38,774 nt of DNA from a virus. The notes below the pieces were generated by a model. It was given only the letters and a program-made list of their open reading frames with translations, was not told where the DNA came from and did not search any database. Below are positions 8,230 to 19,491 of this stretch, piece by piece. Each line of letters begins with the position of its first letter. Within the stretch, counting starts at the first letter, position 1. Location: positions 1 to 38,774 of IMG/VR virus record IMGVR_UViG_3300021375_000072; one strand, 5' to 3'. Made by a program: the position numbers and the translations under genes.

Positions 8230-8463
8230 ATGCAATACAAGCACAATGTAATAGCTACGGTTACACGTACGATCACGTACGAATTTGAATTAGAAGCGTT
8301 CACCAATGACCCCGATGGCAATGATGAGATTAAAGATCAAGCTATAGAAGAACTTAAACGTATGGCGGCTAAAGAACCTGTATTAATTGAGGTTTTAAAT
8401 GATGAGTTAGAAGTTGAGGATATTCAGATAACACAAACGTGGCGACAAGGCGGTGTCGATTGA
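8230..8463 (+). CDS. Hypothetical protein, 77 aa
   Basis: Ribosome site AAAGGAGCG before ATG 8230. The first half is a run of predicted beta strands (NVIATVTRTITYEFELEAF), followed by an acidic helix (DEIKDQAIEELKRMAAKE). No family is recognised. It is translationally coupled to the polymerase: its TGA overlaps the likely TTG start of the next gene. Confidence 0.7.
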   Translation: MQYKHNVIATVTRTITYEFELEAFTNDPDGNDEIKDQAIEELKRMAAKEPVLIEVLNDELEVEDIQITQTWRQGGVD

Positions 8464-10283
8464 ACATCTTAACGATAGACTTTGAGACTTACTACGACAA
8501 ACAGTATTCTTTATCTAAACTAACTACTGAAGCATACATACGTGATGATCAGTTTGAGGTTATTGGCGTAGCAGTAAAGCAATCAGGGGGTGAGACTCAA
8601 TGGTTTAGCGGTACGAAACAAAAGACCAAAGAGTTTCTAGATTCGTTTGATTGGGGTAACTCACTAGCTGTAGCGCACAATGCTATGTTCGACATGGCGA
8701 TTCTTTCGTGGCACTTCGATATTAAACCTAAGATGATTGCGGATACGTTATCCATGTCGAGGGCAATACATTCTGTCGAAGTGGGTGGAAGCCTTAAGGC
8801 TCTATGCTCTTACTATCATCTTGGCGCAAAGGGCGACGAAGTAATCAACGCGCTAGGTAAACGTCGTATAGATTTTGATGACGAGAGTTTGTCTAGGTAC
8901 GCAAGCTACTGCATTCAAGACGTTGACCTAACCGAGAAGCTGTTCGGTGTTCTGTTACCCAACATAAACAAGACAGAAGCAAAGCTAATTGATCTCACCC
9001 TACGTATGTTTACTGAGCCAGTACTTGAACTAGACATAGATGTATTGGGTGCGCACTTGGAAGGAGTACAAAAAAAGAAAGCTGAGTTGATGGCTAAGAT
9101 CGACGTAGACCGTAAAGAGATCATGAGTAACCCTAAGTTTGCTGAGTTACTTAAAAACCACGGTGTTATCCCACCAACAAAGATAAGCCCAACAACAGGC
9201 AAGGAAACATTAGCATTCGCTAAGTCTGACGAAGAGTTTAAAAAACTTTTAGAGCATGAAAACGAAACAGTACAAGCCCTTGTGTCTGCTAGGTTAGGTG
9301 TAAAGTCCACCATTGAAGAAACTAGAACCGAACGGTTTATCAACATCGCTATGCGTGGAACTATGCCAATACCCTTACGTTACTACGCGGCTCACACTGG
9401 TCGATGGGGTGGGGACGACAAAGTAAATATGCAGAACCTACCACGTAACTCATCACTAAAAGATGCGATCTGTGCGCCTACTGGCTACACCATGATTGAT
9501 TGTGACTTATCTCAAATTGAGGCGCGGACTCTTGCATGGTTAGCTGAAGAACATGACTTGGTTGAGGCGTTTGATCGAGGCGATGATGTGTACAAGATTA
9601 TGGCTAGTAGCATATATGGTAAGCCAGTAGACAAGATCGACAAGGGAGAACGTTTTGTTGGTAAGACTACTATTCTTGGTGCAGGTTATGGCATGGGTGC
9701 AATGAAGTTTCAAGCACAGCTAAAAAACTTTGGTGTTGAGTTAGATGAGGACGAGTGCAAACGCATCATCCATGTTTATCGGGACACCTATCAGTGGATA
9801 CCTATGCTCTGGAGGAATGCCAATGATGCCCTAGAAGCATTAATGGAAGGTGGGGGTGCGCTGTTAGGTAAGTGGGGTGTACTAGATATAGACGAGATAG
9901 GTATACGACTACCTAACAACTTACATATTAAATACCCAAACTTACGCAGGCAAGAAATTGAAGGCGGAAAAACTGAGATTGTGTACGACACGAGACGCGG
10001 ACGATCAGTCATCGCGAACCGTATCTATGGTGGGAAAGTTATAGAGAATGTGTGTCAGGCATTGGCGCGTATTGTTATTGGTGAACAGTTACTCGGTATC
10101 GCTAAGAAGTACAAGGTAGTAATGACTGTGCATGATGCGATTGCATGTATTGTGCCTAACGAAGAAGTAGAAGAAGCAAAGAAGTTTGTAGAGAAAGTAA
10201 TGAAGACACGCCCTACTTGGGCACAAGAATTACCCCTCGATTGTGAGGCTTTTGATGGAAAAACCTATGGGAGTTGTAAATGA
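8460..10283 (+). CDS. Family A DNA polymerase with 3'-5' exonuclease, about 607 aa
   Basis: Replicative polymerase. Start taken as TTG 8460, overlapping the upstream TGA; the GTG at 8439 adds seven residues. Numbering is from TTG. Exonuclease motifs: DFE (D7, E9), AHNAMFD (D78) and YCIQD (Y150, D154). Polymerase motif A is DCDLSQIE (D349, E354); motif B is RFVGKTTILGAGYG, placing Leu406 at the position of E. coli Phe762; motif C is VHDA (H558, D559, A560), where HDE is usual. No 5'-3' exonuclease domain. Leu at the 762 position has been associated with slower or temperate lifestyles in marine viruses. The surrounding genes make it part of a self-encoded replisome. Confidence 0.95.
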   Translation: MNILTIDFETYYDKQYSLSKLTTEAYIRDDQFEVIGVAVKQSGGETQWFSGTKQKTKEFLDSFDWGNSLAVAHNAMFDMAILSWHFDIKPKMIADTLSMSRAIHSVEVGGSLKALCSYYHLGAKGDEVINALGKRRIDFDDESLSRYASYCIQDVDLTEKLFGVLLPNINKTEAKLIDLTLRMFTEPVLELDIDVLGAHLEGVQKKKAELMAKIDVDRKEIMSNPKFAELLKNHGVIPPTKISPTTGKETLAFAKSDEEFKKLLEHENETVQALVSARLGVKSTIEETRTERFINIAMRGTMPIPLRYYAAHTGRWGGDDKVNMQNLPRNSSLKDAICAPTGYTMIDCDLSQIEARTLAWLAEEHDLVEAFDRGDDVYKIMASSIYGKPVDKIDKGERFVGKTTILGAGYGMGAMKFQAQLKNFGVELDEDECKRIIHVYRDTYQWIPMLWRNANDALEALMEGGGALLGKWGVLDIDEIGIRLPNNLHIKYPNLRRQEIEGGKTEIVYDTRRGRSVIANRIYGGKVIENVCQALARIVIGEQLLGIAKKYKVVMTVHDAIACIVPNEEVEEAKKFVEKVMKTRPTWAQELPLDCEAFDGKTYGSCK

Positions 10284-12809: not shown

Positions 12810-13112
12810 ATGAGGAAAAAACGTAACTACAAAAAGGAATACGAGACATATCAAGGCACTGAAGAGCAAAAGAAGAACCGAGCGATGCGTAACAAAGCAA
12901 GGCGTAAAGCCCTGAAGAACGGGTCAGTAAAGAAAGGCGATAAAAAAGATGTAGCACATAACAAGGCTATATCTAAAGGTGGTACGAACAAAGACGGTAC
13001 TAGGGTTACTAGCTCCAGTGCTAATCGTAGCTTTGATCGAAACTCTAAAAAGGGTTTGGTATCAGAGACTAGTCCAAAGGAGCGAAAACAACGTGGAAAT
13101 AATAAACGATAA
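12810..13112 (+). CDS. Small basic HNH-like phage protein, 100 aa
   Basis: Start at ATG 12810 with AAGGA seven bases ahead; a GTG at 12780 is possible but lies inside the previous gene. Lys/Arg/Asn-rich: KKRNYKKEYETYQGTEEQKK opens a family common in marine phages whose C-terminal half looks like a degenerate HNH (KDVAHNKAISKGGTNKDG). The usual D/H-H pair is reduced to a single His, so nuclease activity is doubtful and DNA binding more likely. It overlaps the helicase gene by 20 nt. Confidence 0.75.
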   Translation: MRKKRNYKKEYETYQGTEEQKKNRAMRNKARRKALKNGSVKKGDKKDVAHNKAISKGGTNKDGTRVTSSSANRSFDRNSKKGLVSETSPKERKQRGNNKR

Positions 13113-14649
13113 GGCTCTTTTAATACGCACAAGGCGTCCAGAGTTAGTAACAGAGCGAATTGAAAACAGCAAGGTAATTAGTCAGGAGGGGGATATTTTT
13201 AATATAGCGATTAAGTGGGGCTTTCAAGAGTCCCAAGAGTTGGCGAAGTTGCGTGTACAAAACGTGCCATCACCGATCAAACGAGATTACGAATGGACAG
13301 GTAAGTTTCAACCTTACAACCATCAACGTGATACATCTTCATTTTTAACACTCAACAAGAAAGCCTTTTGCTTTAACGAGCAAGGTACAGGTAAGACAGC
13401 ATCAGTTATATGGAGCGCTGATTACTTGATGAAACTTGGGGTTATTAAGCGAGTGCTAGTCATTTGCCCCCTATCAATTATGAAATCTGCGTGGCAAGAA
13501 GACTTGTTTAAGTTTGCTATGCACCGTAGTTGTAGTGTGGCTCATGGTGCAGCTGATACACGTAAGAAAATAATTAATGCTGGGTCTGAGTTCGTCATTA
13601 TTAACTTTGACGGCGTAGCTGTAGTCGAAGACGAGATAAAGAAAGGTGGTTTTGATCTAATCGTTGTCGATGAGGCCAATGCCTACAAGAACCCACAAAC
13701 CAATCGTTGGAAGATACTTAAACGTATAACCACTAAACCAGAATGGTTATGGATGCTTACTGGTACTCCAGCGGCTCAATCACCTGTAGATGCTTTTGGT
13801 TTAGCGAAGCTAGTCAACCCTGATAAAACACCAAAATACTTTGGGCAGTTTAGAGATCAGGTGATGTACAAGATATCTCAGTTCAAGTGGATACCTAAGT
13901 CTAATGCAAAGGATGTAGTGCATAAAGTATTGCAACCTGCTATACGTTTTGAGAAAGATCAATGTTTAGACTTACCAGACGTAACGTATGTAGAACGAGA
14001 TGCACCGCTTACTCCACAGCAGAAAAAATATTACGCTAAGTTAAAGAAACAAATGGTTATGGAAGCCGGAGGAGAGCAAGTATCTGCTGTAAACGCCGCG
14101 ACTAACCTAAACAAACTGCTACAGATATCTGGCGGTGCGGTTTACTCAGATGAGAAAGAAGTTATTGAGTTTGATGTATCTAACCGTATTAAAGTAATAC
14201 TAGAAGCAATTGAAGAGTCTTCCCACAAAGTTCTTATCTTTGTGCCGTTCACGCACACAATAGAATTACTTAAAGCTCAGTTAGAGAAGAACAACATTAC
14301 CTGCGCGGTTATCAATGGTGGGGTATCGCTAAACAAAAGATCAGAAAGAATTACTAAGTTCCAAACCGAAGAAGACCCAAGAGTTTTAATTATTCAACCA
14401 CAAGCCGCTTCACACGGCTTAACTTTAACAGCTGCGAATACAATCATTTGGTATGCACCAGTTACTAGCGTAGAAACTTACCTACAGGCTAACGCACGTA
14501 TTGACAGGCCGGGCCAAAATAACGCTATGACTATTGTGCATATACAAGGGAGCGAGGTTGAAAACCGATTGTATTCAATGTTGCGTAGCAAAATAGGGAA
14601 TCACTCCCAAATCATTGATTTATATAGACAAGAAATATCAGAAGAATAG
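13093..14649 (+). CDS. SNF2-family DEAD/DEAH-like helicase, 518 aa
   Basis: SF2 helicase/translocase of the SNF2 type. Motif I is GTGKT (98-102); motif II is DEAN (193-196) rather than DEAH/DEAQ; motif III LTGTPA follows; motif VI is QANARIDRPGQ (465-475). Start set at GTG 13093, preceded by AAGGAGCGAAAACAAC; the open frame runs back to 12979, but those 38 residues overlap the upstream gene and lack a ribosome site. Likely remodels or translocates on DNA during replication or recombination together with the neighbouring nuclease. Confidence 0.92.
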   Translation: MEIINDKALLIRTRRPELVTERIENSKVISQEGDIFNIAIKWGFQESQELAKLRVQNVPSPIKRDYEWTGKFQPYNHQRDTSSFLTLNKKAFCFNEQGTGKTASVIWSADYLMKLGVIKRVLVICPLSIMKSAWQEDLFKFAMHRSCSVAHGAADTRKKIINAGSEFVIINFDGVAVVEDEIKKGGFDLIVVDEANAYKNPQTNRWKILKRITTKPEWLWMLTGTPAAQSPVDAFGLAKLVNPDKTPKYFGQFRDQVMYKISQFKWIPKSNAKDVVHKVLQPAIRFEKDQCLDLPDVTYVERDAPLTPQQKKYYAKLKKQMVMEAGGEQVSAVNAATNLNKLLQISGGAVYSDEKEVIEFDVSNRIKVILEAIEESSHKVLIFVPFTHTIELLKAQLEKNNITCAVINGGVSLNKRSERITKFQTEEDPRVLIIQPQAASHGLTLTAANTIIWYAPVTSVETYLQANARIDRPGQNNAMTIVHIQGSEVENRLYSMLRSKIGNHSQIIDLYRQEISEE

Positions 14650-14707: not shown

Positions 14708-14998
14708 ATGAAAGCAATAATGACTCTAGAAGAGAGACGTGAGGTAGACGCTAAAAAGGTCGTAACCGAAAAAGATACGTTAGAGAAAAAATATACCCGC
14801 TGTTTTAAGTTAGGTCGCCGATTGTATGTACCGACGTATACTGCACCCAGTCTAGGTGGTGTCGAATATGTTGGGCCGCAAAGTAATTCTGAAAATGGTT
14901 TTAGATATTCAGAAACAGACTTATACGCGATGGGTGCTGTGCCTACTAAAGAACATTTATGGGTAAGGTCTTATTTAGATAGGGAGCAATTTAAATGA
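14708..14998 (+). CDS. Hypothetical protein, 96 aa
   Basis: First gene after promoter P3. Charged helical N-terminus (LEERREVDAKKVVTEKDTLEKKY), then a Tyr/Gly-rich part (LYVPTYTAPSLGGVEYVGP). No motif recognised. ATGA overlap with the next gene. Confidence 0.7.
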   Translation: MKAIMTLEERREVDAKKVVTEKDTLEKKYTRCFKLGRRLYVPTYTAPSLGGVEYVGPQSNSENGFRYSETDLYAMGAVPTKEHLWVRSYLDREQFK

Positions 14999-15393
14999 GT
15001 ACAGACGTAGAAAAATACGTAGCCGCGTACAGAAAGATACGCGATGCTATAAAAGAGAAAGAGTTAAAGTACAAAGAAGAAATTGCCGGACTTAAAGAGC
15101 AACAAGATATGGTTGCAAGTAAGTTATTGGAGTTCTGTAATGAATCGAATCTAGATAGCTATAAGACATCTGAAGGGACAGTATCCCGAAGAGTCAGCAC
15201 TAGATACTGGACTAGTGATTGGGAACATATGCATCAGTTCATTAAAGATAATGACGCTATGTATTTGTTAGAACCACGTATCCAGCAAACAAACATGAGG
15301 CAGTTTATTGAGGAGAATCCTGACAAGTTGCCGATTGGGTTGCAGTCAAATAGCGAGTACAAAATATCAGTAAGAAAACCAACCAAACGATAG
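14995..15393 (+). CDS. Conserved phage coiled-coil protein, Gam-like candidate, 132 aa
   Basis: Residues 5-50 are a coiled coil (YRKIRDAIKEKELKYKEEIA and on), followed by a compact domain with RYWTSDWEHMHQFIKDNDA, EPRIQQTNMRQFIEENPD and LPIGLQSNSEYKISVRK. This layout is common next to SSB-like and primase genes in phages. It recalls host-nuclease inhibitors of the Gam type (long coiled coil that mimics DNA at RecBCD ends), but that is inference. It lies between P3 and the SSB-like gene, consistent with protecting phage DNA or acting in recombination. Confidence 0.75.
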   Translation: MSTDVEKYVAAYRKIRDAIKEKELKYKEEIAGLKEQQDMVASKLLEFCNESNLDSYKTSEGTVSRRVSTRYWTSDWEHMHQFIKDNDAMYLLEPRIQQTNMRQFIEENPDKLPIGLQSNSEYKISVRKPTKR

Positions 15394-15402
15394 GGAGTGA
15401 AT

Positions 15403-15561
15403 ATGCAGAAAAAAAGTCAATGGGAATCTATAGTGGTTACAAGTTCTAACCGTAAGCTTATTGAACGAGCATTAAAAGTAGCGCCACCAAGTGACGGTAA
15501 AAAACCGTTAACAGTTAAAGAAGTATTTGAGTCTATAAACAAAAGGGGAAATCATGGGTAA
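15403..15561 (+). CDS. Hypothetical basic protein, 52 aa
   Basis: ATG 15403 preceded by TAGGGAGTGAAT. Sequence begins MQKKSQWESIVVTSSNRKLI; a helix-loop-helix-like tail (PLTVKEVFESINKRG) resembles the end of small DNA-binding domains, but no family is recognised. Its stop overlaps the start of the SSB-like gene by 8 nt, so the two are coupled. Confidence 0.6.
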   Translation: MQKKSQWESIVVTSSNRKLIERALKVAPPSDGKKPLTVKEVFESINKRGNHG

Positions 15562-16441
15562 CGTTGCAATATTTAAAGATCAAAATGCGGCAGTAAGTAC
15601 AAAGCGGGAGCTTAGTGAGCTATCTAAGTCCCTCATGCAGAAGACTAGTGGCGGTACTAATAGACGTATACAGGCTAATACCAACGGGACTTTTAAACGT
15701 GTAGTGAATGGTGAAGTTATTGGTAGCGCAGTACGTGGTGAAATCAATGTAGTCATAGTTAACCTATTAGAAAAAGTATCACGTATTTACTACAAGGAAA
15801 AGTTTGATCCTAACAAGGAAGCGACACTACCTAACTGTTGGTCTAACTTAGGTGACAAACCAGAAGATGGGGCGTCTGACAAGCAAAGTGCTTCATGTCT
15901 AAGTTGCCCTCAAAACGTTAAAGGGTCTGGTCAGAACGGTGGTCGTGCTTGTAGGTATCAACGTAGGCTTGCTGTATTACTAGCAGGGGACACTAGTGGT
16001 GACGTATATCAACTCAACATACCTGCTAAATCTTTGTTTGGTAAGGGTGTAAACAACTCACATCCGTTTGAGTCTTACGTAAAGTACTTACTAGCTAATG
16101 GCGAGTCTATTGATAACGTCGTTACTAACGTAGCGTTCGATGCAAATGCAGACACAATGGAGCTTATATTTACACCAGTTCGCCATATTACTGACGAAGA
16201 ATTTGAAGTAATGCAGCGAGCGCAAGCTACTCCAGAGGCTAGTATGTACACCTCTATTACTGTGGCGCAAACCGATGGTGTTAAGAAGCTACCCAAGGAA
16301 GAGCCAAAGATTGAGCGTTCAGATGAACCAGAGGATGATCCGGTTGAAGAACCACAAGTTCGCCCAGCAAAGAAAAAAGAATCTGCTCCCAAAGCTAAGA
16401 AAGATGTAGCTGACGTAGTAGACGACTGGCTTAGCGAATAA
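15554..16441 (+). CDS. Single-stranded DNA-binding-like protein, 295 aa
   Basis: Central domain (about 45-215) mostly beta, with four Cys (C95, C115, C118, C133) that probably bind zinc. An acidic/Pro/Lys linker (about 235-282) follows, ending in DVADVVDDWLSE. An acidic tail with an aromatic residue is the hallmark of SSB proteins (T7 gp2.5, T4 gp32) used to contact replisome partners. Position before the PrimPol-helicase supports an SSB role. Residues 17-28 (KRELSELSKSLM) recur in the PrimPol-helicase. Assignment is inferred, since no OB-fold family motif can be read directly. Confidence 0.8.
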   Translation: MGNVAIFKDQNAAVSTKRELSELSKSLMQKTSGGTNRRIQANTNGTFKRVVNGEVIGSAVRGEINVVIVNLLEKVSRIYYKEKFDPNKEATLPNCWSNLGDKPEDGASDKQSASCLSCPQNVKGSGQNGGRACRYQRRLAVLLAGDTSGDVYQLNIPAKSLFGKGVNNSHPFESYVKYLLANGESIDNVVTNVAFDANADTMELIFTPVRHITDEEFEVMQRAQATPEASMYTSITVAQTDGVKKLPKEEPKIERSDEPEDDPVEEPQVRPAKKKESAPKAKKDVADVVDDWLSE

Positions 16442-16671
16442 TGAGTTACGGTTATAGCATACGTTTAGTAGAGTTAAATAAGGAAGCTGATCGTAAGCTA
16501 CTAGGAGTTCGCCTTGGAAGACAGTGCATCAAAATAGGTGTATCTGTTTCTGAGGTGGCTTCTCAACTGGGTGTTAGTAGGCAAACAATTTACAACTGGT
16601 TTGCGGGGATTACTACGCCTAGAGCTACGCAAGTAGAGCTTATAAAAAACTTTATTAATCAAAACAAATAA
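16441..16671 (+). CDS. XRE-type helix-turn-helix protein, 76 aa
   Basis: The C-terminal part holds a clear HTH: VSVSEVASQLGVSRQTIYNWFAG (about 38-60), with helix 2 EVASQLGV and recognition helix SRQTIYNWF. The start overlaps the SSB-like stop (TAATG). As the only clear HTH regulator in the window it is the best candidate to bind the CCACAATGTGG palindrome at P1/P2. Its place in the replication operon also fits a replication accessory factor. Confidence 0.85.
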   Translation: MSYGYSIRLVELNKEADRKLLGVRLGRQCIKIGVSVSEVASQLGVSRQTIYNWFAGITTPRATQVELIKNFINQNK

Positions 16672-16683
16672 GAGAGCGAACAT

Positions 16684-19491
16684 ATGGACTTACTTAATAC
16701 AGTACAGCCGTCCTCTGGGTGGTTTTGCGTATTAGGTATAAAAGGGAAGAGAGTAGATCAGCACCTCGTCGAAACTAGGGAGGAGGTAGACAAACTTGTA
16801 GAGGACTTTGTTGCTGATAACTGGGATGTATATTTTGGGGTCGCTAAGTTTGCAACGGATGCGAATAGAACCAAGGATAACGTCCACTTACTTAAATCTT
16901 TCTGGGTAGATATTGATTGCGGAGAAGCTAAAGCTGTAGTTAGTGAGGAAACTGGTAGACCTGATGGGTATATCGATCAAGCCACCGGACTAGAAGCACT
17001 CAAGGCTTTTTGCGAGAAGATAGGATTACCTGATCCGATTGTAGTTAACTCAGGGCGCGGTATACACGCATACTGGCCTGTAACCGAAGAGTTGACGCGA
17101 GAAGAATGGGAGCCTGTTGCACGCAGACTACGTGATCTTTGTTTGACTCATAACTTTTATATCGACCCAGTAGTGTTTGAACCCGCAAGGATTCTTAGAG
17201 TACCGGATACGTATAATTTTAAAGATGATCCACCTAATAAAGTAACTGTATTAGAAGAGGCTGAGCCGACATCTATAGCAGATATACGTAGCATATTAGG
17301 AGTAAAAGAAACTTTAGAAGTAGCGCCGAAGCGCGAGATGTCTGAACTTAGTAAGTCCCTTATGGGTAACTACACATCTAGCTTTACCAAGATTATGATG
17401 CGTAGTGCTAGTGAAAACGGATGTCAGCAGTTACTGGGTGCGTACAAAGACCGTGCAAACCTGACGGAGCCTAGATGGTTTAATGCTTTGTCGATAGCAA
17501 AGTTTTGTAGTGATAAGGACAAGGCTATACATAAGCTATCGAAAGATCATCCAGACTACGATCCTACTACAACTGAGGAAAAGATTGAGCACATCAAAGG
17601 CCCACATGGTTGTGCGGAGTTTGAAAAGTCAAACCCAGGGGGTTGTGAGGGATGTCAGTTTAAGGGAAAGATTAAGTCTCCCATATCACTAGGCAAGGAA
17701 GTAGAAGAAGCTAGTGAGGAAGACAACACTATAGTTATTGAAGGTGAGGATGGGGAAGAAGATGAGACGCATGTAATACCTAAATATCCCGATCCATACT
17801 TTAGAGGTAAAAATGGTGGTGTATATGTAACGCCACCCGAAGAAGATGCAGACCCCATACTTGTATATGAGCATGACTTGTATGTAGTTAAGCGTATGTA
17901 TGATCGTGAGATAGGGGACATGATTGTAGTTAAAGTTCATCTACCTACTGATGGCATACGAGAGTTCGTTATTGAAAGTGCTTACATGTCTAAGTTAGCA
18001 GATTTAGCTTCGATGCTAGCTAAAAACGGTGTCATAACTATAGGCAGAAAGAAAGCCGAGGCAGTAGCGATGTACATAGCACATGCTACTAGAAACTTAC
18101 AATATAAGAGAAGGGCGGAGATAATGAGGAAACAATTTGGCTGGGCTGACAAAGACAGCAAGTTTATTTTGGGGGATCGAGAGATAAGTGCGGATGGTGT
18201 GTACCATAGCCCACCGTCAGATGTCACAAAAGAGATAGCACCACGCATACACACCGCAGGGACTTTTGAGAAGTGGAAAGAGATATGGAGTTTATACGGT
18301 AGAGAGGGTCTGGAAGCAAAAGCGTTTGCAGCATTGAGTGCGTTTGGTTCGCCGTTACTTAGGTTTACTGGGCAAAGTGGAGCGCTAATAAACTTGGTGC
18401 ATTCTGATTCGGGTACTGGTAAGTCTACTGTTTTGTTTATGATTAACAGTATATTCGGGCATCCAAAAGACTTATGCGGTACTCCGAAAGATACAGCTAA
18501 CTCACTATATAAAAAGCTAGGGATCTACAACCACTTGTGTTTTACGCAAGATGAGATTACTAACTTACCCGCAAAATTATTTTCAGACTTTGCATATGGT
18601 GTGTCTCAAGGTAAGGGTAAAGATCGTCTAACCGCAGCTTCACAACTTATGGAGAACAGTACTAGGTGGCAACTGATTGGCGTAACGTCGTCTAATTCTT
18701 CTTTCTACGACAAGCTGTCTATGTTAAAAGATGGAGCTAATGGTGAGTTAATGCGTGTACTAGAGTATATGGTAGCGCCTGACACAGTTATCGGGGTTAA
18801 AGAAGGTCGGCAAGCGTTTGATAGAGATTTAATGAATAACTATGGGCATGCGGCTGAGCCTTACATAACATACCTTGTTAGCAACTTTGAAGAGGTAAAA
18901 AACACAGTCTTAGCTGTACAAGACAAGATGGATAAGGAACTAAAACTAAGCCAGAAAGAACGGTTTTGGTCAGCGGTTATTGCTGCAAATATAGCGGGAG
19001 GTATGATAGCCAGTAGAGCAGGTCTTATTGATTGGGATATGAAGCGTATTTATCAATGGGCTTGTAACATGATGCAAGACTTACGTATGGATGTAAAACC
19101 ACCAGCTGCTAGTGGTATGGCTATATTAGGGGACTACTTAAACACCTATATTAATTACACACTAGTGGTAGACGATGGAGTGGATAAGCGTAGTAACATG
19201 AAGGCACTACCTAAGATGGAACCTAAAAACGAGTTGCTTAACCGTATGGAACCAGATACAAACCGCGTATTTATAACCACTAAACACTTTAAAAAGCATT
19301 GTGTAGAAAATCAAATAAACTATAAAGAAACAATAAAACTTTTAAAGACGGAAGGTTATTATCTAGGCAGTATTAACAAACGCCTATCAAAAGGCATGAA
19401 AATAACTACTCCTGCAGTTAACTCTTTGTATTTTGATGTGGCGGATAACAAGCTAACACAGGATATTATGAACACGGAAGATGATAGTTGA
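16684..19491 (+). CDS. Bifunctional PrimPol primase-helicase, 935 aa
   Basis: N-terminal archaeo-eukaryotic-type primase: WVDIDC (D76, D78), SGRGIHAYW (H128) and YIDPVVFEPARI (D161). A Cys/His segment GPHGCAEF...GGCEGCQF (C310, C321, C324) probably binds zinc and links to an acidic spacer (about 340-360). C-terminal helicase: Walker A DSGTGKST (575-582) and Walker B LCFTQDE (D623, E624), like the DUF927/SF3-type helicases of phage primases. It synthesises primers and unwinds DNA ahead of the family A polymerase. Residues 216-227 (KREMSELSKSLM) match a peptide in the SSB-like protein. Start follows GAGAGCGAACAT. Confidence 0.92.
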   Translation: MDLLNTVQPSSGWFCVLGIKGKRVDQHLVETREEVDKLVEDFVADNWDVYFGVAKFATDANRTKDNVHLLKSFWVDIDCGEAKAVVSEETGRPDGYIDQATGLEALKAFCEKIGLPDPIVVNSGRGIHAYWPVTEELTREEWEPVARRLRDLCLTHNFYIDPVVFEPARILRVPDTYNFKDDPPNKVTVLEEAEPTSIADIRSILGVKETLEVAPKREMSELSKSLMGNYTSSFTKIMMRSASENGCQQLLGAYKDRANLTEPRWFNALSIAKFCSDKDKAIHKLSKDHPDYDPTTTEEKIEHIKGPHGCAEFEKSNPGGCEGCQFKGKIKSPISLGKEVEEASEEDNTIVIEGEDGEEDETHVIPKYPDPYFRGKNGGVYVTPPEEDADPILVYEHDLYVVKRMYDREIGDMIVVKVHLPTDGIREFVIESAYMSKLADLASMLAKNGVITIGRKKAEAVAMYIAHATRNLQYKRRAEIMRKQFGWADKDSKFILGDREISADGVYHSPPSDVTKEIAPRIHTAGTFEKWKEIWSLYGREGLEAKAFAALSAFGSPLLRFTGQSGALINLVHSDSGTGKSTVLFMINSIFGHPKDLCGTPKDTANSLYKKLGIYNHLCFTQDEITNLPAKLFSDFAYGVSQGKGKDRLTAASQLMENSTRWQLIGVTSSNSSFYDKLSMLKDGANGELMRVLEYMVAPDTVIGVKEGRQAFDRDLMNNYGHAAEPYITYLVSNFEEVKNTVLAVQDKMDKELKLSQKERFWSAVIAANIAGGMIASRAGLIDWDMKRIYQWACNMMQDLRMDVKPPAASGMAILGDYLNTYINYTLVVDDGVDKRSNMKALPKMEPKNELLNRMEPDTNRVFITTKHFKKHCVENQINYKETIKLLKTEGYYLGSINKRLSKGMKITTPAVNSLYFDVADNKLTQDIMNTEDDS

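Follow-up and report, generated by a model that had tools for sequence, protein, structure and literature searches.

A candidate docking peptide that co-varies between the SSB-like protein and the PrimPol-helicase of a phage family

We analyzed a window of 38,774 nucleotides, comprising positions 1 to 38,774 of the IMG/VR virus record IMGVR_UViG_3300021375_000072, and found that two of its replication proteins, a single-stranded DNA-binding (SSB)-like protein and a PrimPol-helicase, carry nearly the same 12-residue peptide. Comparison with related phages showed that the peptide changes between lineages while remaining matched within each genome. From these sequence patterns we infer, with a probability of about 0.88, that both proteins use it as a co-evolving docking peptide for a common receptor. 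The features concerned are as follows, including the archaeo-eukaryotic primase (AEP) domain, the oligonucleotide/oligosaccharide-binding (OB) fold and the AlphaFold2 confidence given as predicted local distance difference test (pLDDT) values.

15,554-16,441, plus strand: SSB-like protein, 295 amino acids, with a disordered N-tail, an OB-fold core, zinc-type cysteines and an acidic C-tail
15,602-15,637, plus strand: shared peptide KRELSELSKSLM, residues 17-28, in the disordered N-tail of the SSB-like protein
15,617-15,646, plus strand: short helix predicted in the SSB tail, residues 22-31 (AlphaFold2, low confidence, pLDDT about 57)
16,684-19,491, plus strand: PrimPol-helicase, 935 amino acids, with an AEP primase-polymerase domain, a linker, a zinc-type middle domain and a DUF927 helicase
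17,329-17,364, plus strand: shared peptide KREMSELSKSLM, residues 216-227, in the PrimPol-helicase linker that leads from the AEP primase domain to the next domain
17,344-17,364, plus strand: helix predicted for the PrimPol copy, residues 221-227 (AlphaFold2, block mean about 80)

Matched peptides in the window and its relatives

Translation of the two segments gave 11 of 12 identical residues, in agreement with the match described by an earlier sequence-only reading of this DNA. The pair reached a BLOSUM62 score of 54-55, compared to 23 for the next best 12-mer across all open reading frames (ORFs) of the window, and none of 200 shuffled linkers scored as high, which argues against a chance match. 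The same reading had placed both copies in linker-like segments. Consistent with this, the AlphaFold2 models locate the SSB copy in a low-confidence tail that stops immediately ahead of the first core strand, and PrimPol residues 210-216, which follow the AEP domain and immediately precede the helix at 221-227, are disordered. Both copies, therefore, have the disordered or linker location of a short linear motif (pLDDT about 57 and <50, respectively).

Relatives were collected from 63 IMG/VR contigs related to the SSB-like protein, from sets found by PrimPol alignments and from named phages that include Pseudomonas phage Rollin and Rhizobium phage TM3_14A. Loci, written here as L with a number, were taken from lists of 80 per search pattern, with more than 500 stretches matching each pattern. 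This provided 351 loci, 325 of them with both genes and 262 non-redundant, with PrimPol identity extending down to about 25%. A scan of genome contigs returned two Bradyrhizobium prophages only.

In nearly all 262 loci, both proteins contained the peptide at the same place, with a sequence that varied by lineage yet matched within the genome. Examples (SSB / PrimPol) are ERELSEFAKATM / EREISEFAKASQ in L100, LGELLKDGIGSS / LAELLKDNLDSS in L061, RESALGKKF / ELSALGKKF in L137, RELSPLAKSL / RELSPLMQSM in L120, NDELGAGV / NDELGAGL in L203, DSTTKDIAG / DETSKDLAG in L225, NFSDGI / NFTEGV in L202, LNASASQNL / LNAGASANL in L213, LDEATRSLMG / LDDTTRALIG in L317, PLNAITKSLL / PLNALTKSLL in L329 and DDMTKALAGN / DDMTKALMGN in L289, as well as TDELSAGI / TSELSAGI in Rhizobium phage TM3_14A and ALPAHLQ / AIPEHLR in Rollin. 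Other within-genome matches were SEFAKA/SEFAKA and LGAG/LGAG. In some groups, the shared stretch comprised about 20 residues with two elements, as in L199 (PNSAFAALNPEAESLADGI / PNAAFAALSPQADQLGTGV) and L289 (PDYLKEVGLDDMTKAL / PDYLPTFADDMTKAL). A further element, [LIV]P[DEA][YHF][LI], often stands at the start of the SSB tails (L281-L351 group, L067 and L146), and it is also common to the PrimPol linker in some groups (L289, L347 and Rollin). We found no published account of a peptide shared by SSB and primase in the open-licence literature.

To quantify the matching, we used the mean best ungapped 10-mer score between SSB tail and PrimPol linker, comparing own pairs to re-paired genomes. For 155 representatives, own pairs scored 27.6 and re-paired ones 18.3 (standard deviation (s.d.) 0.42; maximum of 20,000 permutations, 20.0). 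The values were 26.4 and 17.9 for 75 representatives and 25.8 and 17.9 (maximum 23.8) for the 19 with less than 40% PrimPol identity. A smaller initial set agreed with this outcome, and the gap between own and other pairs widened with divergence. As a control, 128 pairings of SSB segments with PrimPol segments were scored, of which two overlapping tail-linker pairings stood at z 7.8 and 7.7 and the next at 3.0. In a position-wise test of the marine group, positions 2-11 were each matched above re-pairing, most strongly position 8 (z 7.8), followed by 7 (z 7.0), 5 (z 6.4) and 10 (z 6.2). Mutual information with average product correction, computed for set B, ranked the tail and motif columns best of all windows (0/290 and 0/82 as good). 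At the level of single genomes, 85 of the 155 own pairs were within the top 5% of distant-genome matches, where 8 were expected. About 40 representatives were individually weak; the 22 weak ones that we looked at showed cut or mis-started tails, gapped matches and a few real mismatches.

The peptide is, thus, both kept and co-varying across relatives, as is characteristic of short linear motifs. The sequence-only reading had suggested such a motif for a common partner and named orthologue co-variation as the check: the match held and co-varied in hundreds of relatives, and the peptide was not missing from one protein in most of them, so that this interpretation gained strong support.

A coincidental resemblance between generic linkers, both amphipathic, coil-like and similar in composition, is scarcely credible and was rejected by the permutation tests. 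Short peptides of K, E, S and L are common, and single loci such as L104 and L133 were not significant; however, own pairs scored above re-paired ones in each clade-thinned set, single positions co-vary and matches also occur in peptides of very different composition (LNASASQNL/LNAGASANL and NFSDGI/NFTEGV). We likewise consider it very improbable that concerted evolution, with 36-60 bp copied repeatedly between the SSB and PrimPol genes, produced the matching. In the window, two of the three shared serines are encoded by AGT in one gene and TCT in the other, with TCC in both genes for the third, as previously noted. Across the loci, identical peptide residues used the same codon in 283 of 673 cases (42%), compared to 249 ± 12 (37%) expected, a small unexplained excess of about 2.9 s.d. 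that was absent from flanking control pairs (codon-sharing ratio 0.98). Since the flanks show no such excess, occasional DNA exchange at the peptide is possible. This exchange does not account for the matching, as the flanks are unrelated, the codon is shared at only 42% of identical residues and 23 of 75 shared serines pair an AGY with a TCN codon. Most of the matching lies at the protein level, and the earlier claim that the window pair is kept in this way, with no recent copying, is supported.

Candidate receptors of the peptide

By structural modeling, the SSB-like ORF has an OB-fold core, as in single-stranded DNA (ssDNA)-binding proteins. Its structural matches (VIA-align) were led by the recombination directionality factor gp3 of phiC31 (PDB 9teh chain I; Z 8.1 over 156 residues, 4.0 Å, 11% identity), followed by BRCA2-ssDNA OB folds (Z 5.8) and RPA; the lower Z values are individually weak, and the assignment draws on the consistency of the OB folds listed. 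The zinc-type cysteines C95, C115, C118 and C133 of the core are invariant (alignment A1), and the only family matches were PHROG 27714 and 23155, both listed as function-unknown. The PrimPol-helicase is a phage AEP PrimPol fused to a DUF927/Cch-like helicase. Its N-domain matched S-2L PrimPol (6zp9) in Foldseek (E 1.3e-7, TM score 0.73 on the target), with D76 and D78 invariant (alignment A4), while the helicase part matched Pfam DUF927 (PF06048, 1.2e-24) and, in Foldseek, the SCCmec Cch helicase (5dgk, E 5e-21). In GenBank, the homologue from Rhizobium phage TM3_14A (L066:10240-13323) is labeled 'putative integrase protein'.

A recurrent third carrier of the peptide was not found among all ORFs of the window and other long representative loci, so the receptor had to be sought otherwise. 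We assign even odds to the SSB core. In the proposed mechanism, the peptide would be a short docking helix displayed on the SSB N-tail and on the PrimPol linker after the primase domain. Both copies would fit one pocket, which would differ between phage lineages and pull both copies along. With this pocket on the OB core, the tail of one SSB would dock on the neighboring SSB, providing cooperative coating, and the PrimPol, carrying a copy of the SSB plug, would dock on a template strand coated with SSB, so that primase and helicase would be delivered to the correct DNA. We infer peptide binding as such, the SSB-core receptor and the recruitment role from sequence comparison.

The SSB core is favored by a lineage with an apparent SSB replacement, in which the old tail is gone, the new SSB has only the C-tail and drift has altered the PrimPol peptide. 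The relevant features are:

L121:3410-4835, L116:1926-3424 and L125: SSB replacement loci
16,415-16,438, plus strand: acidic C-tail VVDDWLSE of the SSB-like protein in the window, with DxW conserved in the family (alignment A1)

In all three loci, the SSB-like ORF begins at the core and lacks the tail. L116 and L121 contain a gp2.5-like SSB (PHROG 112, related to Roseobacter phage SSBs) between this truncated ORF and the PrimPol, and L125 has the same truncated ORF with a PrimPol of the same type. The gp2.5-like SSB of L116 and L121 lacks the N-peptide and ends in KLASVIDDWADD or KLASVIDAWADD, the acidic DDW C-tail type of the old SSB family, in which VVDDWLSE or an equivalent is present in most members (alignment A1). 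The PrimPol peptides of the three loci read RHQLTEINKSFF, RPHLTEVNKAFF or PHHPTEVNKAFF; in most of the closest PrimPols, at about 65% identity, the peptide is KRELTELAKSM. L116, L121 and L125 look like an SSB replacement in progress, in which an unrelated newcomer has the acidic C-tail type of the old family, presumably kept for a third partner. The pattern suggests that the N-peptide lost its purpose after the replacement, if the socket is the old SSB core. The SSB tail also seems to have a use of its own, since Xp15 and Acinetobacter phage HHU4 keep SSB tails (IPEHLKKF and LPSYLQQY, respectively) with an unrelated primase that has no copy. A peptide common to SSB and primase was not found in KPP25 and Xp15.

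Additional information on partners came from co-divergence, measured as the partial correlation of peptide divergence with protein divergence given the other proteins. The divergence of the PrimPol peptide followed the rest of PrimPol (0.24) and the SSB core (0.20), with values of 0.08 for the exonuclease, −0.01 for SNF2 and −0.07 for the Gam-like protein. For the SSB peptide, the values were 0.36 with the rest of PrimPol, 0.08 with the SSB core and ≤0.06 with all others. Several observations weigh against the SSB core as receptor. Co-divergence of the SSB tail is stronger with the remainder of PrimPol than with the SSB core, the coupling of the motif window to the SSB core was equaled by 57 of 289 other windows in the largest set and confident docking of the SSB tail was absent from the AlphaFold2 model. 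Furthermore, the SSB replacement on three contigs is probably one event, and the PrimPol peptides of this lineage are moderately unusual, ranking 9, 14 and 22 of 75. Mutual information with the SSB core, SNF2, the Gam-like protein, exonuclease, the helix-turn-helix (HTH) protein and PolA singled out no receptor, with only the tail-linker pair standing out.

Other candidate partners and neighbors in the window are:

8,439-10,283, plus strand: family A DNA polymerase, with co-divergence data from 25 loci only
12,979-14,649, plus strand: SNF2-type helicase, without a co-divergence signal
14,995-15,393, plus strand: Gam-like protein, encoded immediately upstream of the SSB gene, without a co-divergence signal
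16,441-16,671, plus strand: small HTH protein between the SSB-like and PrimPol genes, with at most a possible role in the mechanism

One pocket on a third replisome protein, such as the family A polymerase, SNF2, the Gam-like protein or a host factor, might instead bind both peptides, with SSB and PrimPol taking turns on this hub. Such an arrangement would explain why two proteins have a common plug, and it has a precedent in T7, where tails bind a hub (PMC12593628). Polymerase, exonuclease, SNF2 and Gam-like genes occur across these phages, and polymerase, exonuclease and helicase genes are also present in Xp15 and the Acinetobacter phages, which have the SSB tail and no primase copy. We nevertheless regard a hub as less likely than the SSB core, given that SNF2, the Gam-like protein and the exonuclease lack partial co-divergence, with polymerase data from 25 loci, and that the replacement SSB has a C-tail without the N-peptide. 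The polymerase or loader named as a possible partner in the sequence-only reading is not supported: the co-divergence of SNF2, the Gam-like protein and the exonuclease is near zero, the polymerase data come from 25 loci only and the single informative SSB replacement points to the SSB instead.

The partial correlation of the SSB tail with the rest of PrimPol, its highest, would fit a receptor on PrimPol itself. Here the primase or middle domain of PrimPol would take up the linker helix, either in cis or from the neighboring ring subunit, and competition by the SSB tail at this site would switch the enzyme when it meets coated DNA. The PrimPol helix is also better predicted (about 80) than the SSB helix (about 57). 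This option is improbable in our view, as phages whose primase is unrelated still keep the SSB tail and the divergence of the PrimPol peptide also follows the SSB core (0.20). The SSB core, thus, remains our preferred receptor.

As a side observation, homologues of the Gam-like ORF were detected in 332 of the 351 loci. Its family, PHROG 13900, is labeled 'minor head protein', a doubtful designation because the ORF sits in the replication operon.

Known systems and implications

Among known systems, a parallel for the copied plug is provided by Rad51, whose oligomerization motif FxxA is copied in the BRC repeats of BRCA2, which thereby docks on Rad51. As proposed here for the SSB tail, a protein that coats DNA self-associates through a plug of which a partner carries a copy; the Rad51 case differs in involving a recombinase instead of an SSB, another fold and another sequence. 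In T7, the acidic tail of the SSB gp2.5 contacts gp5. The acidic tails of the T7 primase-helicase gp4 contact basic patches of gp5 (PMC12593628). T7, thus, resembles the present family in having a phage SSB and a primase-helicase that both have short tails, which in T7 contact one replisome partner. The T7 tails are C-terminal, act by charge and have a known receptor, whereas the peptides described here are internal or N-terminal, helix-forming, variable in sequence and matched per genome, with a separate acidic C-tail on the SSB.

Human PrimPol is recruited through RPA-binding motifs in its C-terminal region that dock on the OB domain RPA70N, and RPA stimulates priming (PMC5457501). Like the present system, in which docking is proposed, this one combines a PrimPol-type primase with peptides in flexible regions. 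Unlike here, where the SSB has its own co-evolving copy in the tail, the human motif is C-terminal, and we know of no matching copy of it in RPA. To our knowledge, none of these three systems has copies that match and co-vary between an SSB and a primase.

The best fold match of the SSB-like core, phiC31 gp3, does not suggest an integrase-partner function for the family studied here. The SSB-like protein and the gp3 family match in fold, with no match in a profile search of PDB chain sequences. The gp3 gene lies within the phiC31 replication cluster, and in view of the fold match (Z 8.1) the directionality factor may have originated from a replication SSB or serve as one in addition. No common peptide was found between gp3 and the phiC31 primase gp9a.

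Residue-level matching of a peptide between two non-homologous replication proteins across hundreds of loci is a rare and clean signature of a shared docking site, and with the peptides, both the receptor and the mechanism of recruitment can be tested directly. They also offer a function-linked handle on PHROG 27714 and 25314, both annotated as unknown. We tentatively suggest, at somewhat less than even odds, a recruitment code across a large, unstudied family of phage replisomes, in which the self-association plug of the SSB N-tail is copied by the primase. If true, these natural, lineage-specific plug-socket pairs would constitute a replisome compatibility barrier, with neither SSB nor primase swappable singly between lineages, which is a possible reason why the SSB and PrimPol genes travel together.

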